From NCBI RefSeq assembly GCF_002198655.1, contig NZ_MWLN01000222.1, forward strand, positions 1 to 33,718: DNA of 33,718 bases. Reading direction: 5' to 3'. Origin of the DNA: Kineosporia sp. A_224 (GTDB lineage: Bacteria; Actinomycetota; Actinomycetes; Actinomycetales; Kineosporiaceae). This document shows, piece by piece, positions 17,771-32,262 of this stretch. Within the stretch, counting starts at the first letter, position 1, and each line of letters starts with the position of its first letter. The notes beneath the pieces were generated by a model, which was not told where the DNA came from, searched no databases, and worked only from the letters and a program-made list of their open reading frames with translations. A program made the translations under genes and the position numbers.

Positions 17771-18993
17771 ACGGCACGCCCGACCGCCCTGCCGTCGCGC
17801 ACGTCCTCGGTACCCCCGGCACCGGGGGCGTCCCCGTCGTCGCGCACGCGCTGCTGCGCCGCCTGCCCGGCTGGCGCCCGCACCTGTACTACCTCACCGA
17901 CCGCACCGCAGACCCGGTCCGCCGGGACGTCGCCGTCGCCGCCCTGCAGGCCGCCGGCGTCGTCGTCCGGCTCGTACCCGCCGACGTCGCCCGTGACAAG
18001 GAGCGCGCCGTCGACACGGTGGCGGGCTGGGTCGCGCAGGACGGCGTCCGGCTCGTCCACACGCACTCGACGCGGCCCAACCGGTACGGCCGGCTCGCGG
18101 CGCTGCGGGTGCCCGGCGTCCGGGTCGTCGCGCACTACCACAACCACTACGACGACAAGTGGTCCGACGGGTCGGCCGACCTCGACCTCGAGCGCCGGCT
18201 CGCCGCCCGCACCGACCACCTCGTCGCCTGCTCGGAGTCGGTCCGCGACCACGTCGTGGACCGGCTCGGCGTAGGCGCGGACCGGGTCACCGTGCTGCGC
18301 AACGGCGTCGACGCCGAACGGTTCGCGCACGGTGACGGGGCCCGGGTCCGGCAGGGGCTCGGCGTCGCGCCCGGCACGACCGTCATCGGTGCCGTCGGGC
18401 GGCTCTGCGCGCAGAAGGCACCGGACGACGTGCTCGAGGCGGTCGCGCCGATCCTGCTGCAGCGCAACGGGTCCGGCGGGTCCGGCCCGCGCGCCGAGCT
18501 GTGGTTCGTCGGGGCACCGGACGACGCCGCGCTCGCCGCGGCCCTGGAGCGCCGGGCCGCCGGGCTCGGGGTGGCGGGCGCCGTCCGTTTCCTCGGCTAC
18601 CGGGCCGACGTGCCCGACGTCTACGCGGCGCTCGACGTCGTCGTCCTCGCCTCCCGCTGGGAGGGCTTCGGGCTCGTGGTCGCCGAGGCGATGGCCGCCG
18701 GCCGGCCCGTCGTCGCGACGGACGTCGGCGGCGTCGGCGAGGCCGCCGGCACCGGGCTGTCCGGTGGCCCCGCGGCGCTGCTCGTGCCGCCCGGCGACGT
18801 CGCGGCCCTGCGGGCCGGGGTCGCCGACGTGCTCGCCCGGCCGGCGCTGGCCGCCGACCTCGCGCTGCGCGGGGTCGGCCGCTCCGCGACGCTCGGCTGG
18901 GGCGAGGCCGCGGCCGCCCTCGACGTGCTCTACCGGGACGTGCTGTCCCGGCCCGTGCCCGCCGCCGAACCGCTCCCCGTGGGCGCGCCGTGA
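17767..18993 (+). CDS. GT4-family glycosyltransferase, operon gene 6
   Basis: This 408-aa retaining glycosyltransferase has a GT-B fold. Residues about 10-190 form the acceptor domain, with a glycine-rich GTPGTGGVPVV loop near the start and HTHSTRPNRYGRLAA further on. The donor domain follows, with VGRLCAQKAPDDVLEA around residues 213-228 (the usual K of the pyrophosphate contact), and WEGFGLVVAEAM, whose E299 and E307 make the EX7E motif of GT4. Donor and acceptor are unknown. The pattern is that of enzymes elongating exopolysaccharide or glycolipid chains. The start is GTG in a GTGA overlap with the preceding kinase, and the gene ends in another GTGA overlap with the phosphatase. Confidence 0.9.
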   Translation: MNGTPDRPAVAHVLGTPGTGGVPVVAHALLRRLPGWRPHLYYLTDRTADPVRRDVAVAALQAAGVVVRLVPADVARDKERAVDTVAGWVAQDGVRLVHTHSTRPNRYGRLAALRVPGVRVVAHYHNHYDDKWSDGSADLDLERRLAARTDHLVACSESVRDHVVDRLGVGADRVTVLRNGVDAERFAHGDGARVRQGLGVAPGTTVIGAVGRLCAQKAPDDVLEAVAPILLQRNGSGGSGPRAELWFVGAPDDAALAAALERRAAGLGVAGAVRFLGYRADVPDVYAALDVVVLASRWEGFGLVVAEAMAAGRPVVATDVGGVGEAAGTGLSGGPAALLVPPGDVAALRAGVADVLARPALAADLALRGVGRSATLGWGEAAAALDVLYRDVLSRPVPAAEPLPVGAP

Positions 18994-19661
18994 CCGCCCC
19001 GCTGCCGCCGGTCGTGCTCGTCCGGCACGGCCGGACGGCGTGGAACCGCACCCGCTTCCTCGGCCGCCGCGACGTCCCGCTCGACGAGGTCGGCCGCGGC
19101 CAGGCCGCGGCGGCCGCGGACGCCGTCCGCACCCTGCTCGGGCCCGTCGGCGGGGCGGTGACCCTGTGGAGCAGCCCGCTCGGCCGCGCCCGGGAGACGG
19201 CGGCGCCCGTCGCGGCCCGGCTCGGGGTCCCGGTGCACCTGCACGACGACCTCGTCGAGCTCGACTGCGGCGAGTGGGAGGGCCGCGAGAAGGCCGAGGT
19301 CGGCCGCAAGGTGAGCAAGCTCCCCCCGGACGAGCCGGTGCCGGGCGGCGAGAGCGCCGCCGACGCGTGGCGGCGGCTGCAGCGGTTCCTCGCCGACGCC
19401 GGGCTCGGCCCCGCGGGGCCCGGCGCCCCGGCCGCGCCGGGCGCGGTCGTCGACGGGCCGGTCGTCGACGGGCCGGTCGTCGTCGTCGTCGGGCACCACC
19501 TCGTGAACAAGCTCCTCTACGCGGCGCTGCTCGGCCGCGGTGTCGAGGGGGCCCTCGCGACGCCGGAGTACCGGCCGACCCCGGGCTCGGTCGTCCTGCT
19601 CGACCGGCTGTCCGGCGGGCTGCGGACGGCACCCGCCGCCGTCCCGGTGGTCGGCGCGTGA
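18990..19661 (+). CDS. Histidine phosphatase (phosphoglycerate-mutase superfamily), operon gene 7
   Basis: This 223-aa cytosolic phosphatase has the LVRHGRTAWN signature, with the phospho-accepting His13 and Arg12, a general-acid Glu in the ELDCGEWEG stretch near residues 90-98, GGESAADAWRR, and the second active-site His at VGHH (169-170). A short tandem repeat (VVDGP twice) forms a loop just before that His. Family members dephosphorylate sugar phosphates, nucleotides and small metabolites. In an operon with four kinase-fold proteins it may remove a phosphate from a sugar-phosphate precursor or an intermediate. There is no signal peptide, so it acts inside the cell. It has 4-nt overlaps with both neighbours. 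Confidence 0.9.
   Translation: MTAPLPPVVLVRHGRTAWNRTRFLGRRDVPLDEVGRGQAAAAADAVRTLLGPVGGAVTLWSSPLGRARETAAPVAARLGVPVHLHDDLVELDCGEWEGREKAEVGRKVSKLPPDEPVPGGESAADAWRRLQRFLADAGLGPAGPGAPAAPGAVVDGPVVDGPVVVVVGHHLVNKLLYAALLGRGVEGALATPEYRPTPGSVVLLDRLSGGLRTAPAAVPVVGA
19446..19475. repeat. Two-copy 15-bp tandem repeat inside the histidine phosphatase
   Basis: GTCGTCGACGGGCCG occurs at 19446-19460 and 19461-19475, followed by a run of GTC triplets. It encodes VVDGP twice and then a valine run immediately before the second active-site His. Confidence 0.85.
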
Positions 19662-20917
19662 ACGTCGACTGGGCCGGCCACGGCACCGCCCCCCACACCG
19701 ACCCCGCGTTCCCGACCCTCGCGGAGTGCCTGGCACCGCTCGTGCCCGGTGCGGCGCCGGTCGCCGTCTACTACTACCCGGGCCGCACGCTGCACGTCGT
19801 GCACCGCGACCCGGACGACCGGCTCGTCACGCGTGACGTCCCGCCGGTCGGAGCCCCGGCCGCCCTGCTCGGCCCGGGGGAGCGATGGGACGCAGACCTG
19901 CGCTGCGTCGTCCGGACGTTCCCGCACGACCCGGGGCTGCCCGCGCTCGCGGCGGTGGTCCGCGGCACCGGCGCCGGCCCGGACGACGTCCTCTCGTATC
20001 TGCCCGGGCGGCGCGCGGTGCTGCGTGCCACCGGACCGCAGGGCCCGCTCGTCGTCAAGGTCGGCGACGTGGAGTCGTTGCGGCGCAACCACTCCCGGCA
20101 CGCGGCCCTGCACGGGCTGCCCGGCCGGTCGTTCCGGGTGAGCCGCCCCGACTCGCTCGACGAGGAGGCCGGGCTGCGCCGGGAGGAGCTCCTCGAGGGT
20201 GCTCCGCTGGTCCGCGCGCTCGCCGGTCTCGTGGGACCGGAGGCCGTCGAGGCCCTCGCCGCGGACCTCGCCGGCCAGGTCGCCGCGCTGCACCGCCTCG
20301 ACGCCGGGCGGGACCTCCCGGGCCTGCCGCTGGCCGACCACACCGCCCCGGTGGCGTTCGCCCGCTGGCAGCGCAAGACCCTGCGCACCATCGGGCGCGC
20401 GCTGCCGGCGCTCGCCCCGCGGGCGGCCGCCGTCGTCGACGGGCTCGCCGGCTCGGTGCCCGCCCCGGGGACGGGCGTCGTCCACGGCGACCTGCACGCG
20501 GCGAACGTCCACGTCGGTCCCACGGGTCCCGTCCTCCTCGACCTCGACGAGCTCGGTCGAGGCGACCGGGAGCTGGACGTCGCCGTTCTCGTCGGCCGGC
20601 TGCTGCTCGTCTCGGACTCGTCCGGCCGCACCGACACGACCGCCCTCGCCCGGGCGTTCGTCGTCGCCCACGACACCGAGGCGGCCCCGCTGCGGGGCGA
20701 CGTCCTCGCGTGGTACCTCGCCGGCACGCTCGTCGGTCGCCAGGTGAAGACGAGCATCCGGCACGTCGCCCCCGACCTCGGGGCGCTGTGCACCCGGCTC
20801 GTCGCGCTCGCGGAGGTCGCTCTGGCGGCGCACACCTGTGCGACGCCGCGCACGCGCGCCACCGAGGTCGTCGACCGGCTCGCCGAGGCCGTCGTCCGGA
20901 TGCCGGCCAGGGTGTGA
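19658..20917 (+). CDS. APH-fold kinase with canonical catalytic loop, operon gene 8
   Basis: This 419-aa phosphotransferase has an N-terminal region of about 120 residues with an aromatic strand (VAVYYYPGRTLHVVH) that resembles the N-terminal extension of operon gene 3 only in position. The N-lobe carries LVVKVGDVESL near residues 130-140. The catalytic loop VVHGDLHAANV is fully canonical, with H276, D278 and N283, and LLDLDELGRGDRELDVA supplies the DFG-equivalent Asp. The active site therefore looks intact. The likely substrate is a hydroxyl on a sugar, lipid or glycan precursor, as inferred from its neighbours. It has GTGA overlaps at both ends. It is longer than typical aminoglycoside resistance kinases (about 260-300 aa) because of the extension. 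Confidence 0.85.
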   Translation: MNVDWAGHGTAPHTDPAFPTLAECLAPLVPGAAPVAVYYYPGRTLHVVHRDPDDRLVTRDVPPVGAPAALLGPGERWDADLRCVVRTFPHDPGLPALAAVVRGTGAGPDDVLSYLPGRRAVLRATGPQGPLVVKVGDVESLRRNHSRHAALHGLPGRSFRVSRPDSLDEEAGLRREELLEGAPLVRALAGLVGPEAVEALAADLAGQVAALHRLDAGRDLPGLPLADHTAPVAFARWQRKTLRTIGRALPALAPRAAAVVDGLAGSVPAPGTGVVHGDLHAANVHVGPTGPVLLDLDELGRGDRELDVAVLVGRLLLVSDSSGRTDTTALARAFVVAHDTEAAPLRGDVLAWYLAGTLVGRQVKTSIRHVAPDLGALCTRLVALAEVALAAHTCATPRTRATEVVDRLAEAVVRMPARV

Positions 20918-21822
20918 GCGCACCTTCCGCGGCCCCGGACCTGCGTGACGACGCGCTGCCCGGCCTCGCCCCGCTGCTCGGCACGGCCGCGCCCGGCGAC
21001 GTCACGGTGCTCGCGCACCGGCCCGGCCGCCGGGCGACCGTGCTCGTCCGCGGCAGCGGCCCGGCCCGGGTCGTCAAGCTCTTCTGCCGCAAGGAGTTCC
21101 CGGCGGCGCTCGGCGCGGCCCGCCTCGTCGGGCGGCACGGCGACCTCGCCCCGCGGCTGCTCGCGGTCGACGAGGGCGCGTGCAGCCTCATGCACGAGCA
21201 CGTCGACGGCGACGGGCTCGACGGGCTCTCCCCGCAGGAGCGGGCCGCACCGCTCGCGGCGCTCGGCGGCGTCCTCGCCCGGGTGCACTCCGCGCCCACC
21301 GACGGGCTGCGACCCTGGGACCGCGCGCACACCGGGCGCAAGCTCGTCCGGTGGCACGACGCGGCCGCCGGGCTCGCCCCGGAGGTCACCGCCCCGGTCG
21401 CGCCGGTCGTCACCGCGCTGCTGCCGCGGCTGCTCGACGCCGCCGGCCGTGCGTGCGTCCACGGCGATCTCGCGCTGCGCAACGTCCTCGTGACCGGCGA
21501 CGGCACCGCGCGCACGACCGGCTCCGTGCGGCTCATCGACTGGGACCGGACGGCGTCCGGGCCGCCCGAGGCCGACCTCGCGCCGCTCGTCGGGCTGCTC
21601 GGCGAGGCCGCCGGCCCGGCCGTCGCGGCCTACCGCGCCGCCGGCGGCACGGTCGACGACGACGTGCTCGCCGACCTCGTGCTCGCCAACCGGCTCACCC
21701 GGCTGCTGCGCCGGCTCGCCCGGGGCGACGACCCGCCCGCGCTGGCGTCAGGCCGGCTGGCCGCCGTCCTCGACGGCACCGTCCGCCGCGGGGTCGAGCA
21801 GCCCGTCGAGGCCGACGCCTGA
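20914..21822 (+). CDS. APH-fold kinase, last gene of the + strand operon
   Basis: This 302-aa phosphotransferase is of standard family length. Its ATP-lysine strand is VVKLFCRKEF near residues 53-62. The catalytic loop is CVHGDLALRNVLV, with H183, D185 and N190, and the DFG-equivalent is LIDWD at 207-211, so all core residues are present. LFCRKEF plus SLMHEHVDGDGLDGLS resembles fructosamine-kinase and choline-kinase relatives in pattern. The substrate is unknown. It starts in a GTGA overlap. The stop lies 75 bp inside the convergent heparinase gene, so the last 24 codons are double-coding DNA. No terminator is visible between the two operons, and transcripts from both sides probably run into each other. 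Confidence 0.85.
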   Translation: MSAPSAAPDLRDDALPGLAPLLGTAAPGDVTVLAHRPGRRATVLVRGSGPARVVKLFCRKEFPAALGAARLVGRHGDLAPRLLAVDEGACSLMHEHVDGDGLDGLSPQERAAPLAALGGVLARVHSAPTDGLRPWDRAHTGRKLVRWHDAAAGLAPEVTAPVAPVVTALLPRLLDAAGRACVHGDLALRNVLVTGDGTARTTGSVRLIDWDRTASGPPEADLAPLVGLLGEAAGPAVAAYRAAGGTVDDDVLADLVLANRLTRLLRRLARGDDPPALASGRLAAVLDGTVRRGVEQPVEADA

Positions 21823-23805
21823 CACGACACCGGTGACCCCCTCACCGGTCGCCCACAGCGGGCGGCCCGACGCGTCGGCGCGCACGAGGAGGAACCGGCC
21901 GGCGAGGTCGACGGCGGTCCCGTCGGCCGTCGTGACGGCGCCCGGTGCCGGCGGCAGCCAGATCCGGTCGACGACCTCCTGGCCGGCGGCCCGGACGAGG
22001 ACGTCCCAGGCCGGCACCGGCCCCGCGGCGGCCGCGAGGCCGAGCACCTCGACCCCCGTCGTCCGCGGCGCGACCGCGCTGACGAGGAGCAGGGCGCCGG
22101 CGCCGGCAGCGTTCGCCCGGAGGACGGGCGCCGGGTGCTTGACGCCGTACAGCGTCGACACCCAGCCGTCGTCGACGCGGACGTCGGCGCCGGCGGGCAC
22201 GTCGAGGAGCATCGCGGCCGGGGTGCCGCGGGTGACGACGGTGCGCCGGGCGGCGCTGCCCGACGGCAGGTCCGCGAACGATGCCGTGACGCCCGCCGGC
22301 AGGTGCCAGGCGACCTCGGCGGTGTGCTCGCCGGTGTCGCCGGGCAGCGGGGCGACGCGGTCGACGACGAGCAGGTACTGCCGCCGGACGAACACGACGA
22401 CCCGGGTGTGGACCGGGGTGTACTCGTCGCTGACGACGGCCGCGGTGACCCAGTCGCCGTCCCGCCCGACATGGACCGCGCGGGACCTCACCACCGCGTC
22501 CGGGCCGTGCTTGTTGCGCGACAGGTACCGGGTCTGGTCGCGTCCGTCGACGGTCACGGTGTTGTGCGCCCGGGTCGTCTTGAACGTGTGCCGCCAGTCG
22601 ACGCCGTCCGCGTCGAGGTCGCCCGAGTACGTGTAGCGGCCCGGGTCGACGAGCGCCGGGGCGCCGTCGCAGTGCAGGACGACGCTCAGCGCGTCGTAGT
22701 GCGCGTGGGCGCCCTCGCCGAGCAGGGCCGAGTCCACGAGGGCATGCGTGCGCTGCTCGTAGCCGCTGCCGCCGGCCGCCGGGTCGGACGCGTCGGTGGT
22801 GTCGGTGAGGACGGTGTAGCCGGCGTCCGGGAAGTCCCGGGACGGCACGGCCGGCCGGCGGCCGCGGGTGCCGCGGGAGCCGGCCCACGTGAGCTCCGGG
22901 TCGTCGAAGAGCGCGCCCGCGCCGAGCAGCAGCGCCGCGTGGTCGCCGTCGTCGGAGTCGCCGAGGAGCGGGATGTGCCCGTCCGGCCACGTGAGCCAGG
23001 CCGACCACTGCGTCATGGCATGGATCCGGCGCAGCAGAACCGGGTCGACCGCGATCCCGTTGCGGGCCGCGAGGGTCGCGACGTCGAGCGCGGTCTCGGC
23101 GACGAGCTGGTGGTAGTGCGTCGCCATCTCGACGTGGACGCCGTCGGGCAGGATCTCGCGCAGGAGGTTGTCCTCGAGCAGCCGGACCGCCTCGGCGACA
23201 AGGGCTTTCGCGCCCGGGGCCTGAGGCACGCAGACCCCGGTGAGGAAGACGCTGTGCAGCTGGAACGTCCGGTGGTTGCGCACCGGCTTGAGGTGCGTCG
23301 AGACGTAGTGCGCCTCGTCGCCCATCCGCTGCACCCAGGCGCGGAGCAGGTCGTCGTCGACGGCGTCCGCGGCAGGCCCGCCGTCGAGCAGCCCGCGGCC
23401 GTGCGCCTCCCGCAGCAGGAGCAGCGACTCGACCCACGAGCGCAGCCGGAGCGCCTCGACCTGCGCGTCGCTGACGACGATGAACCCGGTGCCCATCCGG
23501 GTGAGCCAGGTGCGCAGCAGCCGGGCCCAGGCGTCGAGGTACGCCGGGTCGCCGGTCGCGAGCAGCCCGTGGAGCAGGTTGCGCCCGAAGTAGTGCTTGT
23601 GCTGGGCGATCTGCCATTCCTTGTCGCTGCTGGGGTTCCGCTCCCAGTGCGGGTCGGGGCCGAGGTCGTACTCCTCGCCGACGAGCAGCCAGCGCCCGGC
23701 GAGGACGCGCTGCGCGTCGGCGAGCATCGCGGCCGTCGCGACCGGCGGGTCGGGGAGGACGACGGAGGTGTCCGTGAGCAGCGCGGTGCCGTACGGGCCG
23801 GTCAC
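21748..23805 (-). CDS. Heparinase II/III-family polysaccharide lyase, last gene of the iron operon
   Basis: This 685-aa protein has the heparinase II/III and alginate-lyase layout. An alpha/alpha toroid fills about residues 20-320, with RNHRTF at 176-181, THYHQLVAE at 229-237 and GDSDDGD at 282-288. The beta-sandwich domain follows, with the family signature HAHYDALSVVLH at 367-378, LVDPGRYTY at 385-393 and RAHNTVTVDG at 412-421. Such enzymes cleave uronic-acid-containing glycans by beta-elimination. There is no signal peptide, so it would act in the cytoplasm or be exported unconventionally. That is odd for a lyase and suggests processing of an imported or newly made glycan. The GTG at 23805 overlaps the GT4 stop as GTGA. 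Its C-terminus overlaps the convergent kinase gene by 75 bp. Confidence 0.9.
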   Translation of the reverse strand: MTGPYGTALLTDTSVVLPDPPVATAAMLADAQRVLAGRWLLVGEEYDLGPDPHWERNPSSDKEWQIAQHKHYFGRNLLHGLLATGDPAYLDAWARLLRTWLTRMGTGFIVVSDAQVEALRLRSWVESLLLLREAHGRGLLDGGPAADAVDDDLLRAWVQRMGDEAHYVSTHLKPVRNHRTFQLHSVFLTGVCVPQAPGAKALVAEAVRLLEDNLLREILPDGVHVEMATHYHQLVAETALDVATLAARNGIAVDPVLLRRIHAMTQWSAWLTWPDGHIPLLGDSDDGDHAALLLGAGALFDDPELTWAGSRGTRGRRPAVPSRDFPDAGYTVLTDTTDASDPAAGGSGYEQRTHALVDSALLGEGAHAHYDALSVVLHCDGAPALVDPGRYTYSGDLDADGVDWRHTFKTTRAHNTVTVDGRDQTRYLSRNKHGPDAVVRSRAVHVGRDGDWVTAAVVSDEYTPVHTRVVVFVRRQYLLVVDRVAPLPGDTGEHTAEVAWHLPAGVTASFADLPSGSAARRTVVTRGTPAAMLLDVPAGADVRVDDGWVSTLYGVKHPAPVLRANAAGAGALLLVSAVAPRTTGVEVLGLAAAAGPVPAWDVLVRAAGQEVVDRIWLPPAPGAVTTADGTAVDLAGRFLLVRADASGRPLWATGEGVTGVVSGVGLDGLLDPAADGAVEDGGQPA

Positions 23806-24902
23806 CGGGCGGCCCCGGCACCGGCGTAGAGGTCGGCGAGCGCACCGACGTTGCGGCGCAGGTCGAACAGCGCCTCCGCGCGGCTGCGGGCGGCCGTCGC
23901 GAGGGCGTCCCGGCCGGCCGGGTCGTCGAGCAGCCGGGCGAGCGCGGCGGCGAGCACCTCGGGCGAGCGCTGCGGGACGACGACCCCGCTCACGGCGTCC
24001 TCGACCATCTCCGGCAGCCCGTTGACGTCGGTCGCGAGCACCGGCAGTCCGTGCGCCATCGCCTCGATGACGACGGTCGGGAGCGCGTCCCGGTCGCCGT
24101 CCGCGGTGACGACGCAGGGGACGGCGAGCACCGCGGCCGAGCGCATCGCCGCGGCGACCGCCTCGCCGTCCGCGGAGCCGGGCATCGACACCAGGTCCGC
24201 GACGCCGAGGTCCGACGCGAGCGTCGTGAGCGGCCCGCGCTCGGGACCGTCGCCGACGAACGTCACGGCGACGTCCGCGCCCTGCGCCCGCAGCACCGCG
24301 AGCGCCCGGACGAGGTCGTCGAAGCCTTTCTTCGGCACGAACCGGCCGACGGCGAGCGCCGTCCGGGTGCGGTCCGCGGCGCGCGGCCCCGGCGCGATCC
24401 CGGTGACGTCGACCCCGTTGTAGACGCGCACGACCCGTGCCCCGGGGGCCATCGCGGCGAGCACGCCGACGTTGCCGTCGGTCACGGTGACGACCGCGGC
24501 GGCGCGGCTGAGCAGGCCCGCGAGGGCGGTGGTGTCGACGTCCGCGCGGTAGATGTCGGTGGCGTGCGCGGTGAGGCTGAACGGCACCCCGGCCGCCGTG
24601 CCGGCGGCGTCCGCGACCCGGGCCGCCCAGCCGGCGAAGTGCGCGTGGAGGTGGGTGAGCCCGTGCTCGGCGACCGCCGCGGCGACGGCGTCGGCGGCCG
24701 GGCCGGCGTCCGCGCCCACGTAGGTGACGGGGGCGCGCAGCCGCGCCACGGCCGGGTGGGTCAGCTCCTCGCCGCCGTCCCGGCCGGCGAGGACGACGAC
24801 GTCGACGCCGCGCCGTTCGAGCTCGAGGAGCTCGTGGAGCACGAAGGTCTGGGACAGCCGCGGGAACCGCTTGAGAACGTAACCGACCCGCACGCCGCTC
24901 AC
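23802..24902 (-). CDS. GT4-family glycosyltransferase (WcaL-like pattern)
   Basis: This 366-aa GT-B glycosyltransferase begins with VGYVLKRFPRLSQTFVLHEL, the start typical of colanic-acid-type exopolysaccharide glycosyltransferases. HAHFAGWAA follows near residues 81-89, SLTAHATDIY near 109-118 contacts the acceptor side, and the donor domain has AVGRFVPKKGFDDLVRAL. The EX7E motif is present as Asp-x7-Glu in DALPTVVIEAM. Donor and acceptor are unknown. The start GTG at 24902 forms a GTGA overlap with the stop of the iron-transport ATPase, and its own stop overlaps the heparinase start in the same way. It is thus translationally chained to iron-uptake genes, an unusual setting for a glycan enzyme. 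An in-frame GTG three codons downstream is an alternative start. Confidence 0.9.
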   Translation of the reverse strand: MSGVRVGYVLKRFPRLSQTFVLHELLELERRGVDVVVLAGRDGGEELTHPAVARLRAPVTYVGADAGPAADAVAAAVAEHGLTHLHAHFAGWAARVADAAGTAAGVPFSLTAHATDIYRADVDTTALAGLLSRAAAVVTVTDGNVGVLAAMAPGARVVRVYNGVDVTGIAPGPRAADRTRTALAVGRFVPKKGFDDLVRALAVLRAQGADVAVTFVGDGPERGPLTTLASDLGVADLVSMPGSADGEAVAAAMRSAAVLAVPCVVTADGDRDALPTVVIEAMAHGLPVLATDVNGLPEMVEDAVSGVVVPQRSPEVLAAALARLLDDPAGRDALATAARSRAEALFDLRRNVGALADLYAGAGAAR

Positions 24903-26029
24903 GATATCGGCAGGGGCTCCGCACGCGGGTAGGTCCGGGCGGGCCCGTGCACCTCGACCTGGACGACGTCCCCGTCGGAGGGCAGGTCCGCCCCGGCCAC
25001 CCGGGCCCGGACGCGCTCCCCGGTGACGAGCCGGACGTCGACGAGCGCGTCGTGCCCGAAGTACTCGAGCCGTTCGACGACACCGAGCCGGGCGGCGTCG
25101 ACGGTCGGCGGCCGGCCCCGCCGGCCCACCGACGACAGCGTGAGCTGCTCGGGCCGCAGGACGACCTCGACCGCCCCCTCCGGCGCCGGCGCCGCCGCCG
25201 GGACCGCCCCGAGCACGCAGCGGGCGACGCCGCCGGTGACCGTGCCGGGCAGGACGACCGCGTCGCCGAGGAACTCGGCCGCGGGCCGGTCCACCGGGTG
25301 CGCGTAGGCCGCGGCGGGGGCGTCGACCTGGACGACGCGCCCCTCGCGGACGAGCGCGACCCGGTCGGCGAACGACAGCGCCTCGCCCTGGTCGTGCGTC
25401 ACGAGGACGACGGTCACGCCGGTCGCGGCGAGCGCCTCCTTGACCGCGGCCCGGGTCGAGGAGCGCAGCCCCGCGTCGAGCGCGGAGAACGGCTCGTCGA
25501 GGAGCACCAGGCGCGGCCTCCGGGCCAGGGCACGGGCGAGCGCGACCCGCTGCTGCTGGCCGCCGGACAGCTCGGACGGCCGGACGCCGGCGACGTCGCG
25601 GTCCAGGCTGACGAGCTCCAGGAGCGCCTCCACCCGGGCGCGGGTCGCCGTCCGGTCCCGGCGCTGCGCCCGGCCGAGCCCGAAGGACACGTTGTCCGCG
25701 ACGGACAGGTGCGGGAAGAGCGCGCCCTCCTGCGCCACGTAGCCAACCGGCCGCCGCTCCGGCGGCACCCAGACCGGCGCCCGGTCCGGCCGGTCCGCCG
25801 CGCCGGCGGCGGCGACCCGTTCGCCGTGGATCGTCACGCTCCCGGCGTCCGGCCGGACGAACCCGGCGACGGCGCGCAGCAGCGTCGTCTTGCCGCAGCC
25901 GGACGGCCCGAGGACGGCCGTGGTCGTCCCGGCGTCGACCTCGAGGTCCACGCCGCGCAGCACCGGGTCGCCGCCGAACCCCGCGACGAGGCCGTGCACG
26001 GTCAGGGCGGCGGTCGGTGCGGCGGTCAT
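24899..26029 (-). CDS. Ferric-iron ABC importer ATPase (FbpC-like)
   Basis: This 376-aa cytoplasmic ATPase powers the permease encoded just upstream. Walker A is GPSGCGKTT with K47, the Q-loop Gln is at 100, the signature LSGGQQQR is at 154-161, Walker B ends in D178-E179, and the switch His is H212. A C-terminal TOBE-like beta domain covers about residues 240-376, as in FbpC, PotA and CysA importers, and could carry regulation. Iron specificity is inferred from the FbpA-like binding protein in the same operon. The ATG at 26029 overlaps the permease stop as ATGA, and its stop overlaps the downstream GT4 start. Confidence 0.92.
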   Translation of the reverse strand: MTAAPTAALTVHGLVAGFGGDPVLRGVDLEVDAGTTTAVLGPSGCGKTTLLRAVAGFVRPDAGSVTIHGERVAAAGAADRPDRAPVWVPPERRPVGYVAQEGALFPHLSVADNVSFGLGRAQRRDRTATRARVEALLELVSLDRDVAGVRPSELSGGQQQRVALARALARRPRLVLLDEPFSALDAGLRSSTRAAVKEALAATGVTVVLVTHDQGEALSFADRVALVREGRVVQVDAPAAAYAHPVDRPAAEFLGDAVVLPGTVTGGVARCVLGAVPAAAPAPEGAVEVVLRPEQLTLSSVGRRGRPPTVDAARLGVVERLEYFGHDALVDVRLVTGERVRARVAGADLPSDGDVVQVEVHGPARTYPRAEPLPIS

Positions 26030-27657
26030 CGGCGGACCTCCTCGTCGGGGCGGCGCAGGAGCAGCCAGATGAGCGGCGCGGACAGCGCCACCATGAGCGC
26101 GGCGTACGGCGCCGCCGCGGCGTAGTCGAGCGAGGCGCTCGCCGACCAGAACCCGGTCGCGAGCGTCCGGGTGCCGGTCGGGGCGAGGAGCAGCGTCGCG
26201 GTGAGCTCGGTCGACGTCGCGACGAGGACGAGCGCGAACCCGGCGAGCGCCCCGGGCAGGGCCAGCGGCACGACGACCCGCAGCAGCGCGCCCCAGGGGC
26301 CGACGCCGAGCGCCCGGGCGGCCTCGGCGAGCTCGGGCGGGGCCTGGGCGAGCGCGGCGCGCAGCGAGACGACGGCGCGGGGGAGGAACAGGACGACGTA
26401 CGCGGTGACGAGCAGCGCGCTCGACTGGTAGAGCGCCGGGACGTTGCGGACGGTGAGCGTCACGAGCGCCAGGGCGACGACGACGCCCGGCAGGGAGCTC
26501 GCGACGTACGTGGCGCGCTCGACGAGGGCGGCCGCCCGGCCGCGGCGCCGGGTGACGAGCCAGGCGACGGGGAAGGCGGCGAGCACGGTCACCGCCGCCG
26601 CGGTCACGGCGAGCCCGACGGTGGTGAGCGCGGCCGGGACGAGCGCGGCGGCGTCCGACGCGGTCTCGGAGAAGGCGTCGTCGTCCGCGCCGAGCCAGCG
26701 CACGAGGCTGCCCAGCGGGACGGCGAGCGCGAGGCCGACGAGCCCCGCGACGGCGGCGAGCGCGGGCGCCGTCCACCGCCCGAGCGGCACGGCCTCGGCC
26801 CGGCGCCGGGTGCCCGCCCCGAGGCGCGCGTACCGGGCCCGGCCGCGGGCCGCCTGCTCGAGCGCCAGCAGGCCCAGGCACAGCGTGACGAGGACGACGG
26901 CGAGCACCTCCGCCGATGCCCCGGTGAACGAGGTGTCGTACTGCTCGAGGATCGCGACGGTGAACGTCGGGAAGCGGATGAGCTCGAGGGCCCCGAACTC
27001 GGCGAGCAGGTGCAGCGTCACGAGGAGCAGCCCGCCGAGCGTCGCGGTCCGCAGCTGCGGCAGGACGACACGGACGAAGACCGCGCCGCGGCGCAGCCCG
27101 AGGCTGCGCGCGGACTCCTCGAGCGCCGGGTCGAGCCCGCGCAGCGCCGCGGCGACCGGCAGGAACACGAACGGGAAGTACGACAGCGTCGTCACGAGGA
27201 CGGCGCCCGCGAGGCCGTCGGTGCCGGGCCGCAGGGACACCCAGGCGTAGCTGTTGACGAACGCGGGCACGGCGAGCGGGGCGACGAGGAGCACCCGCCA
27301 CAGGCCCCGCAGCGGCAGCGCCGTCCGCTCGACGAGCCAGCCGGCCCCGGTGCCGAGCACGAGGCACGCCGCCCCGGAGAGGACGACGAGGGCGACGGTG
27401 TTGCCGAGGAGCTCGGCGACCCGCGGCCGCAGCAGGAACCGGGCCGTCGCGCCGGGGTCGGCGGTGAGCGCCGCCCCGACCACGACGAGGACGGGCAGCA
27501 GGGTGACCGCCGCGACGGCGGTCGCGGCGACGGCGACCCACGACGGCCGGCCGCCGGCCACGCCCCGAGCGCGCGACCGGCGGCCGTCGTGGTCCGGCGG
27601 CGAGGCAGGGGCGTGCCCCGCCGCCGGACGGTCGGTCGACGTGGCGGGAGCTGTCAC
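26026..27657 (-). CDS. Ferric-iron ABC importer permease (FbpB-like, fused double permease)
   Basis: This 543-aa inner-membrane permease consists of two binding-protein-dependent transport domains in one chain, as in FbpB and SfuB. A hydrophilic, Pro/Ala-rich N-terminus of about 38 residues precedes TM1. Two EAA loops that dock to the ATPase are visible: EESARSLGLRRG at about 180-191 and ELAEAARALGVGPWG at about 442-456. About 12 hydrophobic helices are present. The GTG at 27657 forms a GTGA overlap with the binding-protein stop; the frame stays open further upstream but only as shadow. Together with the flanking genes it completes a three-part importer. Confidence 0.92.
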   Translation of the reverse strand: MTAPATSTDRPAAGHAPASPPDHDGRRSRARGVAGGRPSWVAVAATAVAAVTLLPVLVVVGAALTADPGATARFLLRPRVAELLGNTVALVVLSGAACLVLGTGAGWLVERTALPLRGLWRVLLVAPLAVPAFVNSYAWVSLRPGTDGLAGAVLVTTLSYFPFVFLPVAAALRGLDPALEESARSLGLRRGAVFVRVVLPQLRTATLGGLLLVTLHLLAEFGALELIRFPTFTVAILEQYDTSFTGASAEVLAVVLVTLCLGLLALEQAARGRARYARLGAGTRRRAEAVPLGRWTAPALAAVAGLVGLALAVPLGSLVRWLGADDDAFSETASDAAALVPAALTTVGLAVTAAAVTVLAAFPVAWLVTRRRGRAAALVERATYVASSLPGVVVALALVTLTVRNVPALYQSSALLVTAYVVLFLPRAVVSLRAALAQAPPELAEAARALGVGPWGALLRVVVPLALPGALAGFALVLVATSTELTATLLLAPTGTRTLATGFWSASASLDYAAAAPYAALMVALSAPLIWLLLRRPDEEVRR

Positions 27658-28682
27658 AGCACGTCTGCGCCGGTCATGAGCTCGACGACCTTGGGCCCGT
27701 TGAGCGTCGCCGGGTCGATCGCCGGCGGGTCGAGGTCGGCGAGCGGCGGGAGCGCCGGGTCCGCGGCGACGCCGGTGCCGACCGGGTACTCCATGGCGTC
27801 GCTCTTCGCGAGGACGTCCTGGCCCTTCGGGCCGGTGACGAACGCGACGAACCGCTGCGCGTCGGCCGCGTGCTTCGAGGCCTTGAGCACGCCCGCGCCG
27901 GAGACGCTGACGAACGCGCCGGGGTCCTGGTCGCCGAAGTAGTGCAGCTTCGTGCTCGCGCTGCCCTCCTTGGTCTTCGCCTGGTCGCGGTACCAGTAGT
28001 AGTGGTAGATCACGCCGGCCGGGACCTCGCCCGCGTTGACCGCCTTCATCGTCGCGATGTTGTTCGCGTAGACCTTCGCGTTCGTCTTCAGGCCGGCGAG
28101 CCACTGCGACGTCTTCGCCTCGCCCTGGGTCGCGAGGACGGCGCTGACGATCGCCTGGAAGTCGGCACCGGTCGCGGCGGCGCCCCAGCGGCCCTGCCAG
28201 GCGGGGTCGGCGAGGTCCATGAGGCTCTTCGGCAGCTGGCTCTCCGGCAGCTTCGAGGGGTTGTAGACGAGGACGGTCGCGCGGGCCGCGGCGCCGGTCC
28301 ACTGCCCGTTCGAGGGCCGCAGCGACTGCGGCACCTGGGCGAGGGTCGCGGCGTCGAGCGGGGCGAACAGGCCGGCGTCCTGGACGATCGTCATCGCCGG
28401 GCTGTTCTCCGTGAGGAAGACGTCGGCGGGGGAGCGGTCGCCCTCGGCGACGATCTGGCTGCCCATCGACGCGTCCTTGCCGGAGCGGATCTGCACCTCG
28501 ACGCCGGTCTCCGCGGTGAACGCGTCGGCCCAGGCCTTCGTGAGGTTCTCGTGCTGCGAGCTGTAGACCGTGAGCTTGTCGGGGTCGAGCGCCGCTTCGG
28601 CGTCGGCGTCACCGCCGCACGCGGTGGTGACCAGGGCGGCCGCCAGGGCGGTCGCGGCGAGGGCGAGGGTCCGGCGCTTCAC
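27654..28682 (-). CDS. Ferric-iron-binding lipoprotein (FbpA-like)
   Basis: This 342-aa extracytoplasmic binding protein of the type 2 periplasmic fold is anchored by a lipoprotein leader: KRR at the start, a hydrophobic core, then TTACGG with Cys near residue 22. The mature part starts with LTVYSSQHENLTKAW, typical of iron(III)-binding FbpA and FutA proteins. The adjacent Tyr228 and Tyr229 in IYHYYWYRDQ correspond to the paired tyrosines that hold ferric iron in FbpA. It should deliver free or weakly chelated Fe3+ to the permease rather than an intact large siderophore. The GTG start has AAGGAG 6 nt upstream. It also overlaps the stop of the preceding fusion gene as GTGA. Confidence 0.92.
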   Translation of the reverse strand: MKRRTLALAATALAAALVTTACGGDADAEAALDPDKLTVYSSQHENLTKAWADAFTAETGVEVQIRSGKDASMGSQIVAEGDRSPADVFLTENSPAMTIVQDAGLFAPLDAATLAQVPQSLRPSNGQWTGAAARATVLVYNPSKLPESQLPKSLMDLADPAWQGRWGAAATGADFQAIVSAVLATQGEAKTSQWLAGLKTNAKVYANNIATMKAVNAGEVPAGVIYHYYWYRDQAKTKEGSASTKLHYFGDQDPGAFVSVSGAGVLKASKHAADAQRFVAFVTGPKGQDVLAKSDAMEYPVGTGVAADPALPPLADLDPPAIDPATLNGPKVVELMTGADVL

Positions 28683-31399
28683 GAGGTTCTCCTTGCGGGG
28701 TCGGGGGTACGGGCGGGAACGGTCAGGGGGTGCGGATCCACCGGCCGCGGCGAGGGCAGCACCCGCCGCAGCCGTTCGGCGAGCGTCCAGGCGGCGACCC
28801 CCACGAGCAGGGACGCGGCCAGGGCGAGGGCGGGGACGTCGCGCAGCGCCGGGAAGACCTGCCACTGGGTGAGGTAGATGTAGAGAGAGCTGCTCGCGAG
28901 GATCCCGACGAGCGGGGTGACCACCCTCGGCAGTCGCACCGCCGGGACCCAGAGCAGGGCGAGGACTCCGACGAGGACGACGGCGTCACGGGCGGGGTTG
29001 TCGAAGAAGCCCGGGACGGCGACGGCCGCGGCGCCGGAGACGATGAGCCGCTGCCGCACCGTCCGGGCCTCGGCGGTCGCCCAGCCGAGCGCGAAGAGCC
29101 AGAACACGTACTGCGGCGTGCCGCGCTCGGGGCCGGTGTCCACGCGGACGACGTCGAACCGCGGCAGCAGGCCGACGCCGACGAGGCCGACCGCGACGGC
29201 GAACGGGTGCCCCGCGCGCGCCCTGCGGACCGCCGGGACGGCGAGCAGCGCGGCCGTCGCGACGAGGATCCACACCAGGGCCTCGACGAACCAGTAGTGC
29301 CAGGCACGGCCCCAGTCGTCCGGCCCGAGCGGGCCGTTGACGAGCAGCGCGGTCGTCCACGGGTACACGCCGACGACGGCGAGCCCGCCGACCCAGACGA
29401 CCGTCGGGACGACGACCCGGGAGAGCGTCCGGCCGACCCGGCGGAGGTGCTCGCCGGCGCCGGTCGCCGTGAAGGTGAACCGCGCGGCGTTGTAGCCGGC
29501 GACGGCGAGGAGCAGGTGCGCCCCGCCGCGCAGCGTGAAGAGGTTCGCGTGCGTGCCGACGACGGCGACGATCGCGAGGCACCTCAGCAGGACGGCGGTC
29601 TCCACCCGTGCCCACGCGCTGCGCCGCGGGGCGGCGCTGCGGGCCAGGTCCGCGACGGCCGTCGTGGCCCAGCCGTCCGGCGGGGTGCCGAGCTCGTCCT
29701 CGAGACGCACCGAGAGCGCCACGTACGACAGCGAGTCGCCGCCGAGCCCGGTGAACGTCGACGCCGGGCCGGCGTCCGGGCGGTCGAGCATCTCGGCGTA
29801 GAGGGCGACCAGGCGGGCCGTGCGGTCCGGGGCGGTGACGACGTCGCCGTCGCCGTCGCCGTCGCCGGCGTCGGCGGTGGCGGCGGCGGTGCGCGCCCGC
29901 GATCCGCAGGCGGCCGTGCACGCCCGGGCCGCGTCGTCCGCCGCGCAGCACCCGGCCGGGGCGGCGGCGGCCTCGACGAGGCGCCCGACCGCCGCCCGGT
30001 CGGGCTTCCCGTTCGGCGTGCGCGGCAGCGCGTCCACGCCGACGACGCGGACCGCGGACGGCGGCAGCGCGAGCTCGGAGGCGAGCAGGCTGCGGACCAT
30101 CGCCGGGTGCGCGCAGCCCTCGACGGCGACGTCGAGCCGGTCGTCGGCGCCGTCGGCCAGGGCGGTGAGCCCGAGGTCGGCGAGGTTCTCGTCGACCCGG
30201 GCGAGGTCGATCCGCACGCCGAGCACCTTGACGAAGCCGCTGGTCCTGCCCGTGACCTGGAGCAGCCCGTCCGGGCCGACCCGGCCCAGGTCGCCGGTCC
30301 GCAGCCGGGTCGTCGTCCGGCCGAGCGCGAGGTCGGCCGGCCCGTGCGCGTAGCCGAGCATGACGTTGGGGCCCTCGTAGACGATCTCGCCGACCTCGCC
30401 GGGCGCGGCCTCCGGGGCGTCGTCCGGGCCCTGGCCCGTGCCCCGGGCGAGCACCCGGAGCGTGCCGCCGGGCACGGCCCGGCCGACGGCCTGCGGGTAC
30501 CGGGCCGCCAGACCCGCGGGCATGCAGGCCATCCGGGCGGTCGCCTCGGTCTGCCCGTACATGACGACGAGGTCCCAGCCGTGGCGGCGGCCGAGGGCCG
30601 CGACCTCCCGGACCCGGTCCGGCGCCATCCGCCCGCCGGCCTGGGTGACCAGTCGCAGCGCCGGGCAGTGCCGGTCGGCGAACCCGGCGCGCTCGAGGAG
30701 GTCGAACGTGTAGGGCACGCCCGCGAGGTTCGTGACCCGGTGCTCGGCGACGGTCCGCCAGAACGGCTCGTCGAGGACGGACCGCTCGGAGAGGACGAGG
30801 CTCGCGCCGCGGGCCAGGTGGCTGTGCAGCACGGACAGGCCGTAGCAGTAGGCGAGCGGCAGCGTCGTGACCGCCCGGTCGTCGGCGGTGATCCCCAGCG
30901 AGTCCGCGACGGACCCGGCGTTCGCGGCGACGCCGTCCGCGCCGAGCCGCACGAGCTTCGGGGAGCCGGCCGAGCCGGACGTCCCGAGCAGCAGGGCGAG
31001 GTCGGGGTGCAGCGTGTGGGCGGTCCCCGGACGGCGCTCCTCGACGGTCCAGACCGGGCCCGCGCCCTGCGCGGCGCGGCGGGCGACGACGTCCGGGTCG
31101 TACTGCTCGACGAGCCGCTCCCGGGCCGCGGTCGCACCGTCCGGGCAGAGCAGGACGACGTGTCCGCCGGCGAGCGCACCGAGGTAGGTGACGACGCAGT
31201 CGAGCGTCGGCACCGGCTCGAGGAGGACGAGGCGGCGGGTCCCGCCGAGGGCACGCCGGGCGGCCCCGGCGAGGCGCGCGAGGTCGGTGTAGGACACGGT
31301 CACCGACGCGGCCGGGTCGGCACCGCCGTCGGGGGCCGGGACGACGAGGGCCGGGCGGTCGCCGAAGCGGTCGAGGCGCTCTGCGAAGGCGACCGGCAC
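28679..31399 (-). CDS. Adenylation domain - carrier protein - membrane acyltransferase fusion
   Basis: This 906-aa protein joins three parts. Residues 1 to about 475 are an ANL adenylation domain with TSGSAGSPK (140-148), YGQTEAT (281-287), RTGD (367-370) and the catalytic Lys465 in TPNGK. A Cys-rich, Asp-Gly-repeat linker (476-522) leads to a phosphopantetheine carrier with GLGGDSLS and Ser556. The C-terminal 300 residues have about ten membrane helices and RCLAIVAVVGTH near 606-617, the start of acyltransferase-3 (OafA-like) enzymes. The layout implies an acyl or aminoacyl group is activated, tethered, then transferred across or at the membrane, like DltA-DltC-DltB in one chain. The acyl substrate is unknown. 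GTG at 31399 has AGGAG 7 nt upstream; an earlier GTG at 31450 would abut the iron box and lacks a ribosome site. It is the first gene of the iron operon. Confidence 0.88.
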   Translation of the reverse strand: MPVAFAERLDRFGDRPALVVPAPDGGADPAASVTVSYTDLARLAGAARRALGGTRRLVLLEPVPTLDCVVTYLGALAGGHVVLLCPDGATAARERLVEQYDPDVVARRAAQGAGPVWTVEERRPGTAHTLHPDLALLLGTSGSAGSPKLVRLGADGVAANAGSVADSLGITADDRAVTTLPLAYCYGLSVLHSHLARGASLVLSERSVLDEPFWRTVAEHRVTNLAGVPYTFDLLERAGFADRHCPALRLVTQAGGRMAPDRVREVAALGRRHGWDLVVMYGQTEATARMACMPAGLAARYPQAVGRAVPGGTLRVLARGTGQGPDDAPEAAPGEVGEIVYEGPNVMLGYAHGPADLALGRTTTRLRTGDLGRVGPDGLLQVTGRTSGFVKVLGVRIDLARVDENLADLGLTALADGADDRLDVAVEGCAHPAMVRSLLASELALPPSAVRVVGVDALPRTPNGKPDRAAVGRLVEAAAAPAGCCAADDAARACTAACGSRARTAAATADAGDGDGDGDVVTAPDRTARLVALYAEMLDRPDAGPASTFTGLGGDSLSYVALSVRLEDELGTPPDGWATTAVADLARSAAPRRSAWARVETAVLLRCLAIVAVVGTHANLFTLRGGAHLLLAVAGYNAARFTFTATGAGEHLRRVGRTLSRVVVPTVVWVGGLAVVGVYPWTTALLVNGPLGPDDWGRAWHYWFVEALVWILVATAALLAVPAVRRARAGHPFAVAVGLVGVGLLPRFDVVRVDTGPERGTPQYVFWLFALGWATAEARTVRQRLIVSGAAAVAVPGFFDNPARDAVVLVGVLALLWVPAVRLPRVVTPLVGILASSSLYIYLTQWQVFPALRDVPALALAASLLVGVAAWTLAERLRRVLPSPRPVDPHPLTVPARTPDPARRTS
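29843..29866. repeat. Four-copy 6-bp repeat encoding an Asp-Gly linker
   Basis: GTCGCC is repeated four times in a row. On the minus strand it encodes the alternating Asp-Gly stretch between the adenylation and carrier domains of the fusion protein. It is a simple in-frame repeat that could vary in length. Confidence 0.85.
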
Positions 31400-31450: not shown

Positions 31451-31469
31451 GCAGGTAAGCCTTACCTAA
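31451..31469 (-). promoter_or_regulatory. DtxR/IdeR-type iron box 1 (promoter-proximal)
   Basis: GCAGGTAAGCCTTACCTAA contains the perfect 7-bp palindrome AGGTAAG-C-CTTACCT at 31453-31467. It matches the 19-bp DtxR/IdeR consensus at 14 positions, or 15 if G or C is allowed at the centre. It lies about 50 nt before the fusion-gene GTG, where a repressor would block the promoter. Repression under iron sufficiency is expected from the family. Confidence 0.85.
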
Positions 31470-31480
31470 CTCTCAAGGGA

Positions 31481-31499
31481 AGAGGTTAGCCTTACCTAA
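31481..31499 (-). promoter_or_regulatory. DtxR/IdeR-type iron box 2 (distal)
   Basis: AGAGGTTAGCCTTACCTAA matches the iron-box consensus at 15 of 19 positions, or 16 if G or C is allowed at the centre. It starts exactly 30 bp from box 1, close to three helical turns, so two repressor dimer pairs could bind the same face. It lies between the FhuF-like gene and the fusion gene. Confidence 0.85.
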
Positions 31500-31509
31500 C
31501 TCGTCGGCG

Positions 31510-32262
31510 TCAAGCCCGGGCGAGCCGCGGGCAGGTGGCGCACGTCGCCGCGCCGGGCACCGCGTAGGCGAGGCAGCACGAGACGCGCAGCCGCGGCGGC
31601 ACCGGCCCGCCGGGCAGCAGTGCCTCGGCCTCGACGAGGCCCTGGGTGCCCGGGGCGGCGGTGAGGACGGCGGCGACCAGGGCGTCGGTCGCGAGTGCGC
31701 GCAGGCTGTGCGGCCCGCGCCCGCCGCGTCGTCCCCAGGCCGCGGTGAAGGCCTCGACGTGGGCGCCGACCTCCGTGAGCAGGGTCGCCCGCAGGGCGCG
31801 CCCGTCCGGTGCCGGGCGGGCGTCCGGGTGCCCGGCGGCCGGGTCGTCGGGGAGGCAGGCGAAGCCGGGTGCGAGCAGGGCGACGGCGTCCGGCCAGCCG
31901 GTGCCCGTGAGGTGCAGGGCCACGGACGCCGGGTCCAGCCGGGGCACCCGGCGGGCCGCGACCCAGGGCACGGTCGCGGCGCACGCGACGGCCCACACGT
32001 ACCAGCCGAACAGGTACGACGGCGCGACGGCCGGCGGCACCCGGTCCCGGTCCGCGGCCGGGACCAGCGCCCGGACGCCGGTGCGGACCCGGCGGGCGAG
32101 GGCGTCGAGGGCGTCGCCGTCGTGCAGGTCGGCGCACGTCGTCCAGCCCGGCCCGCCCGGTGCGGGGCTCGCCGTGCCGCCCGCGGGGAGCCCGGCGAGG
32201 ACGGCGATCCCCGGCCGCGGCGGGACGGCCGCGAGCGTGTCGTGCAGCGGGGCGGACGGCAC
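31510..32262 (-). CDS. FhuF-like [2Fe-2S] ferric reductase
   Basis: This 250-aa protein ends with the FhuF signature CC-x10-C-x2-C (CCLAYAVPGAATCATC), whose four cysteines hold a [2Fe-2S] cluster in E. coli FhuF. The rest shows the weakly conserved helical body, including PSYLFGWYVWAVACAA around residues 81-96. Such enzymes reduce ferric iron in the cytoplasm and release it from siderophores. GTG at 32262 has GGAAGGA 6 nt upstream. The gene ends 10 nt before the distal iron box, so it lies upstream of the iron operon rather than inside its box-controlled part. I see no iron box before its own start. Crp-type palindromes lie about 95-130 nt upstream. Its length is close to E. coli FhuF. Confidence 0.85.
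   Translation of the reverse strand: MPSAPLHDTLAAVPPRPGIAVLAGLPAGGTASPAPGGPGWTTCADLHDGDALDALARRVRTGVRALVPAADRDRVPPAVAPSYLFGWYVWAVACAATVPWVAARRVPRLDPASVALHLTGTGWPDAVALLAPGFACLPDDPAAGHPDARPAPDGRALRATLLTEVGAHVEAFTAAWGRRGGRGPHSLRALATDALVAAVLTAAPGTQGLVEAEALLPGGPVPPRLRVSCCLAYAVPGAATCATCPRLARA

Follow-up and report, generated by a model that had tools for sequence, protein, structure and literature searches.

Two near-identical iron boxes in a contig of Kineosporia sp. A_224 appear to be DtxR/IdeR operators through which a minus-strand operon for iron acquisition is repressed under iron-replete conditions, a reading to which we assign a probability of about 0.8. The boxes lie in the window, the whole 33,718-nucleotide stretch of DNA that was analyzed, which is one entire contig. 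We infer protein binding at the boxes, the position of the promoter, and the direction of regulation. The first-pass annotation described two iron boxes exactly 30 bp apart, the first a perfect palindrome and the second with one mismatch in the arms, with identical right halves, and this description was borne out. Site 1 (31451-31469) reads GCAGGTAAGCCTTACCTAA, in which the 7-bp arms of AGGTAAG-C-CTTACCT are perfect, and site 2 (31481-31499) reads AGAGGTTAGCCTTACCTAA, with a single mismatch in its arms. Both contain CTTACCTAA, beginning at 31461 and 31491, an offset of 30 bp; the boxes are separated by an 11-bp gap, and their identity extends to a 20-nt direct repeat at 95% (31453-31472 and 31483-31502). 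An exact assembly duplication was ruled out, since the left flanks and one base of the arms are not the same in the two copies. A known RNA element (zero Rfam matches at gathering thresholds) and a tRNA (none found) were likewise rejected.

Chance palindromes were ruled out by shuffling, by the genome-wide rarity of the motif, and by its expected frequency. When the entire window was searched with the W-degenerate pattern TTAGGTWAGSCTWACCTAA at three or fewer mismatches, only these two sites matched, each with two mismatches, and 100 dinucleotide shuffles of the window returned no matches at that threshold. Both sites are 19-bp palindromes close to the strict published consensus TTAGGTTAGSCTAACCTAA, from which site 1 differs at four positions and site 2 at three by our own count. 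A genome scan for iron boxes had been proposed as a check, and in 7,196,381 bases (7.2 Mb) it recovered four exact matches to the 15-bp core AGGTWAGNCTWACCT, two of which are this pair; 0.003 would be expected from the base composition of the window. One further place matched the core with one mismatch and one with two, while the reversed-pattern control found no matches across the genome. The 19-bp pattern at three or fewer mismatches occurs at five places in the whole genome. The pair far exceeds what chance would produce.

The remaining strong boxes in the genome are partly consistent with an iron regulon. One of these, with a single core mismatch (C194:4767-4781, locus L025), precedes a stretch matching the FTR1 iron permease (E 2.8e-69). 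The last base of another (C204:8721-8739, locus L018) touches the GTG of a cupredoxin lipoprotein, a layout that would suit a leaderless start covered by the repressor; immediately upstream is an ORF carrying a DyP-peroxidase C-terminal domain. The only 19-bp box in the genome with zero mismatches (C127:23796-23814, L017:5797-5815) precedes a 238-aa ORF with a sub-threshold match to DUF2470 only, and a 19-bp match with three mismatches, possibly due to chance, was seen in the gap that precedes an ORF for a molybdopterin oxidoreductase (C108:9483-9501, L020:3484).

The genome also encodes a cognate regulator. The Fe_dep_repress model matched five places, three of them above cut-off, and only a protein on contig C82 (L019:1688-2377) covers the whole model. 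This DtxR/IdeR orthologue has a DNA-binding and a dimerisation domain, as well as a FeoA match at its C-terminus just above cut-off, and it aligns over residues 1-226 with Saccharopolyspora erythraea IdeR (E 6.8e-75), over 1-201 with M. tuberculosis IdeR, and over 1-199 with C. diphtheriae DtxR. Its matches to IdeR/DtxR structures are at E 1e-64 or better, with MntR chains far lower. The number of Fe_dep_repress matches could point to another metalloregulator, MntR-like or of the Fur family, as the user of these sites; we give this almost no credence, as the C82 protein alone matches the full model and is closest to IdeR/DtxR, and the motif is the published DtxR/IdeR one. Assignment of the boxes to the DtxR/IdeR type, as first annotated, is thus supported by the motif, the orthologue, the ferric-uptake genes downstream, and the box at the FTR1 permease.

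The sites are located upstream of iron-related genes, here a ferric ABC transporter operon, as are the comparative boxes described below. The first minus-strand gene (28679-31399, GTG start at 31399) encodes a 906-aa A-PCP-AT3 fusion, with AMP-binding, phosphopantetheine carrier, and Acyl_transf_3 domains by Pfam. It is followed on the same strand by a ferric-iron-binding protein of the FbpA/YfuA/SfuA type (27654-28682; 8k7n, E 1.6e-122; YfuA, 4.9e-122), an FbpB-type ABC permease with two BPD_transp_1 stretches (26026-27657, Pfam), and an FbpC-type ABC ATPase (24899-26029, Pfam), so that binding protein, permease, and ATPase of an FbpABC importer stand together. A GT4-like glycosyltransferase (23802-24902, minus strand; NCBIfam matches below cut-offs) and a heparinase II/III-like protein (21748-23805, minus strand; Pfam) come next, and from the GTG at 31399 each gene overlaps the one after it by 4 bp. 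The last two genes are probably part of the operon transcript; the glycosyltransferase gene also comes after fbpC in genome G012, which has the heparinase-like gene too, and neither was detected in G001. A FhuF-like neighbor with a C-terminal 2Fe-2S motif (31510-32262, minus strand; Pfam FhuF_C above cut-off, NCBIfam FhuF below) ends 10 bp before the distal box, and its membership in the boxed transcription unit is uncertain. A search of the same genome for an NIS siderophore synthetase (IucA/IucC, PF04183) found none at E ≤0.001.

On the operon strand, the distal box O1 (31481-31499) reads TTAGGTAAGGCTAACCTCT and lies 81 bp from the start codon, and the proximal box O2 (31451-31469) reads TTAGGTAAGGCTTACCTGC and lies 51 bp from it. 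O1 overlaps a likely promoter core (31483-31513, minus strand) recognized by eye, TTGACG (31508-31513) and TAACCT (31483-31488) with a 19-bp spacer; a sigma-70 consensus scan for a promoter found none. The nearest relative with upstream sequence is G001, whose fusion is 73% identical. The predicted core is common to both, and in the alignment CTTGACG and the single G001 box match the O1 region while nothing resembles O2. From this alignment we infer that O1 is the operator common to the window and G001 and that O2 was either gained here or lost in G001.

The position of the boxes, rather than their number, argues for repression. Iron-loaded DtxR would bind O1 over the predicted core promoter and shut out RNA polymerase, and O2, about 8 to 26 bp downstream of the predicted transcription start, would serve as a second operator that adds occupancy and needs no fixed 30-bp geometry. 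Under iron scarcity, the operon would yield a ferric importer of the FbpABC/YfuABC kind together with the A-PCP-AT3 fusion enzyme. The alternative that DtxR switches the operon on, as IdeR does at mycobacterial bfrA and bfrB, where several boxes are the rule, draws on the tendency of activated IdeR targets to carry several boxes, with four at bfrB (PMC10317159, PMC9132128). We consider activation very improbable: neither box is more than about 100 bp from the start codon, the predicted promoter core is overlapped by O1, the genes serve uptake and not storage, and the homologues mostly have a single box just ahead of the gene.

Within the repression reading, the annotation had further proposed that the 30-bp spacing places the sites on the same helical face and that tandem sites mean tight or cooperative repression. 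Its premise that two dimers bind each 19-bp site agrees with the published descriptions (PMC8464063, PMC10317159). At 10.5 bp per turn, 30 bp corresponds to 2.86 turns and falls about 51 degrees short of being in phase, so the helical-face claim is approximate at best; it also adds little, since the two IdeR dimers on one box already occupy opposite faces (PMC8464063, PMC4689551). Taking spacing and published dimer geometry together, we rejected it. Repression itself is supported by box position, but not its inference from tandemness: IdeR-repressed genes are described as generally having one box and activated genes as tending to have several (PMC10317159), and therefore tandem boxes by themselves do not imply tight repression.

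Comparison also bears on whether the pair forms a cooperative unit, in which DtxR on O1 would aid DtxR at O2 through the 30-bp spacing and so produce a steep iron switch. In two species of Phytoactinopolyspora (L032, L035), twin boxes precede the fbpA, fbpB, and fusion genes at a spacing of 25 bp, nearly half a turn different from 30 bp. Across these sequences twin boxes recur and their spacing does not, and G001 apparently suffices with a single box; the spacing is neither conserved nor, at other than a whole number of turns, phase-matched. The near identity of the boxes, their 11-bp gap, and the recurrence of twin boxes in Phytoactinopolyspora would suit such a unit, as would the report that two dimers bind one box cooperatively through DNA shape (PMC10317159). 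The dimers on one box are, however, described as making no direct contact with each other (PMC8464063, PMC10317159). Cooperative, phase-matched repression is thus not supported by the sequence comparison, and we regard it as unlikely. The promoter of an unlinked fbpA in genome G017 (L074) has a box with two mismatches and a weak site with six mismatches 25 bp away, a spacing like that in Phytoactinopolyspora.

As operators, the tandem boxes are good but ordinary examples of the DtxR/IdeR type. The DtxR operator of Corynebacterium glutamicum and other corynebacteria is a 19-bp palindrome, TTAGGTTAG(G/C)CTAACCTAA, located within promoters of repressed iron genes, and paired boxes ahead of a single gene have been documented in Corynebacterium, for example at JK1887 of an iron ABC transport system (PMC1382209). 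The window sites resemble these in palindrome and pairing, with the difference that the two predicted operators here are near-identical and 30 bp apart. Compared with the IdeR regulon of mycobacteria and Saccharopolyspora (PMC10317159, PMC8464063, PMC9132128), the regulator is orthologous, the box is the same, and tandem boxes are again known; those described are at activated storage genes, whereas the pair in the window is at uptake genes, near the start codon.

To place the fusion gene in a wider context, homologues were collected from named genomes (Actinomadura, Amycolatopsis, two Phytoactinopolyspora, Frankia, Pseudonocardia, an Acidimicrobiia MAG, and three other MAGs) and from a search of 198 genomes of the same order, 19 of which were positive at E ≤1e-90. 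After removal of L027 and L029, which are the same records as L015 and L016, 27 distinct loci remained, related to each other and not independent. The fusion is adjoined by fbp genes in 14 of these, and no fbp gene was found beside it in the other 13. For the box test L016 was left out, as its contig begins inside the gene, and L036, cut at its far end, was retained, giving 26 loci. In 21 of the 26, the 262 bp preceding the fusion contain an iron box with five or fewer mismatches out of 19, and in 18 one with four or fewer. Control windows from the same loci contained a box in 10 of 2670 cases, and all ten cover fbpA promoters in five loci; upstream of the fusion, the reversed motif was found in none of the 26 loci, and about 200 shuffled palindromes gave a mean of 0.2 and a maximum of 4.

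The exceptions vary in kind. In L032 and L035 the boxes stand at the operon head and not directly before the fusion, and L030 has only a site with six mismatches. Two loci of one genus (L058, L067) have no iron box upstream of the fusion, and their fbpA promoters have sites with six mismatches only. This genus may regulate these genes otherwise; GAACT repeats are present upstream of the fusion in place of the box. The site in L031 is nearer a divergent fbpA and may serve that gene. In five loci (L056, L063, L066, L068, L069) the box is directly followed by a TANNNT-like sequence and, some 10-20 bp on, by the start codon, as judged by eye, a layout suggesting leaderless transcripts with the box over the -35/-10 spacer.

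The box is also found where the two genes are separated. In seven of nine genomes with the fusion and fbpA unlinked, a separate box (four or fewer mismatches) stands before fbpA, and boxes are present on fusion copies without an fbp neighbor, among them L056, L063, L066, and L068. Ten of 15 fusion-free genomes examined have a box before fbpA at the same threshold, and therefore the box is independent of the fusion and general on fbpA. FbpA was detected in 17 of 19 fusion-positive genomes and 19 of 179 fusion-negative genomes (Fisher 8e-13, with relatedness ignored). These searches scored few candidates per genome in full (four for the fusion, up to ten for FbpA), so that a negative is not proof of absence, and G118 was scored FbpA-negative by E-value with a 31% identical FbpA homologue adjoining its fusion. 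In a smaller first sample, whose negatives came from the top of a list plus G011, the corresponding counts were 9 of 10 against 1 of 11; we base our conclusion on the 198-genome comparison. G011 belongs to the genus of the window genome and is rated 100% complete; it yielded no fusion (E ≤1e-60) and no FbpA (E ≤1e-40), and the module is therefore patchy within the genus. Taken together, these sequence comparisons provide good evidence that the fusion and FbpA act in one process under iron control.

At E ≤0.001 the fusion matches only AMP-binding, PP-binding, and Acyl_transf_3, with no condensation domain. Among 19 homologues, AMP-binding and Acyl_transf_3 were detected in all and PP-binding in 17. 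The R-X10-H (R606, H617) and SXXXY (S838, Y842) motifs are invariant in the 19 and correspond to the AT3 motif definitions, which assign R-X10-H to the first helix and SXXXY to the vicinity of helix 9 (PMC9833829); an RXXR, a further AT3 motif expected in helix 3, was noted by eye at R654/R657 in the window protein. A model of the C-terminus (mean pLDDT 74) aligned with HGSNAT over 241 residues at Z 10.5 and rmsd 5.4 (VIA-align 2), where a Z below about 13 can reflect a common helical-bundle arrangement, and with GWT1 over 229 residues at Z 7.5 and rmsd 5.9, the next entry being at 5.7; both are TmAT enzymes (PMC12423673). Foldseek found no match to the AT3 model in the PDB at E ≤0.001. The C-terminus may thus be a transmembrane acyltransferase with the ten-helix TmAT fold, and given the Foldseek result and the Z scores this assignment rests mainly on the Pfam match and the motifs.

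The adenylation domain lacks the equivalent of Asp235, the residue that binds the amino group and a hallmark of NRPS amino-acid modules, as is the condensation domain. In our own reading of alignments with VinN and PltF-type domains, Cys185 stands where amino-acid domains have Asp235 and is nearly invariant in the 19 homologues, and Arg289 lies at about the position of VinN Arg331, the proposed binder of the substrate carboxylate in VinN-type domains (PMC11253843, PMC12186527). This is weak evidence that the domain takes a non-amino acid substrate, perhaps a di- or polycarboxylic one. In the window protein and in G001, the adenylation and carrier domains are joined by a cysteine-rich linker (residues ~483-500, 29900-29953) that is absent from most other aligned homologues.

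A tentative possibility is that the fusion transfers an activated acid onto an acceptor outside the cytoplasm and thereby aids ferric uptake. The adenylation domain would activate a non-amino carboxylic acid, the carrier domain would then bind it in thioester linkage, and the transmembrane acyltransferase would hand it to the acceptor. The product would be a ligand, either exported or retained at the surface, that assists the delivery of ferric iron to FbpA. The accepted view of AT3 proteins is that they make an acyl-CoA available through the membrane (PMC9833829), and by analogy the fused carrier arm could do likewise in place of acyl-CoA. A better-rated reading, which we put somewhat short of even odds, is that the fusion remodels the envelope under iron limitation by acylating a surface glycan or lipid and is only co-regulated with ferric capture. 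Characterised AT3 proteins mostly acylate surface glycans (PMC9558356), the glycosyltransferase and heparinase-like gene come next in this genus, and 13 of the 27 loci are without an fbp gene beside the fusion; the strong co-occurrence with FbpA, even where unlinked, and the iron boxes on copies lacking an fbp neighbor speak against it. Extending the acid-transfer reading, we hold as rather doubtful the proposal that actinobacteria share an IdeR-controlled ferric-uptake module in which the fusion activates a carboxylic acid, which might be a di- or polycarboxylate, carries it on its own phosphopantetheine arm, and delivers it across the membrane to an extracytoplasmic acceptor. The resulting iron ligand would supply FbpABC as a minimal, single-protein alternative to a siderophore pathway, and twin boxes would be one promoter variant of the module.

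In DltABCD and in MbtM-MbtL-MbtK, an adenylation enzyme, a carrier, and an acyltransferase act in series, and the mbt genes are under IdeR control. These are separate proteins with acyltransferase types unlike that of the fusion, and their products differ from that of the fusion; MbtM gave one weak match. The operon resembles FbpABC/YfuABC/SfuABC importers in its binding protein, two-domain permease, and ATPase, with the difference that the A-PCP-AT3 fusion precedes them. The fusion is like the AT3/TmAT proteins OafB, OatA, and HGSNAT in R-X10-H, SXXXY, and the Acyl_transf_3 match, and differs in its fused adenylation and carrier domains. The available text of PMC9833829, PMC12423673, and PMC9558356 names only SGNH and alanine-racemase fusions of AT3, and among the open-access matches listed no title or abstract opening names an A-PCP-AT3 enzyme tied to iron. 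No description of the iron-regulated A-PCP-AT3/FbpABC pairing was found among these matches, and the fusion is without a described function there. The boxes point to a gene apparently in the iron regulon of many actinobacteria, a concrete and testable candidate. If the proposed chemistry is true, a single protein would provide a route to an iron ligand that is exported or bound at the surface, and its AT3-type acyltransferase would be charged by the carrier domain fused to it and not by CoA.

Elsewhere in the window, a plus-strand run at 11271-21822 contains an ABC exporter, GT28- and GT4-type glycosyltransferases, and ORFs with APH-like domains, and looks like a surface or secondary glycan cluster.
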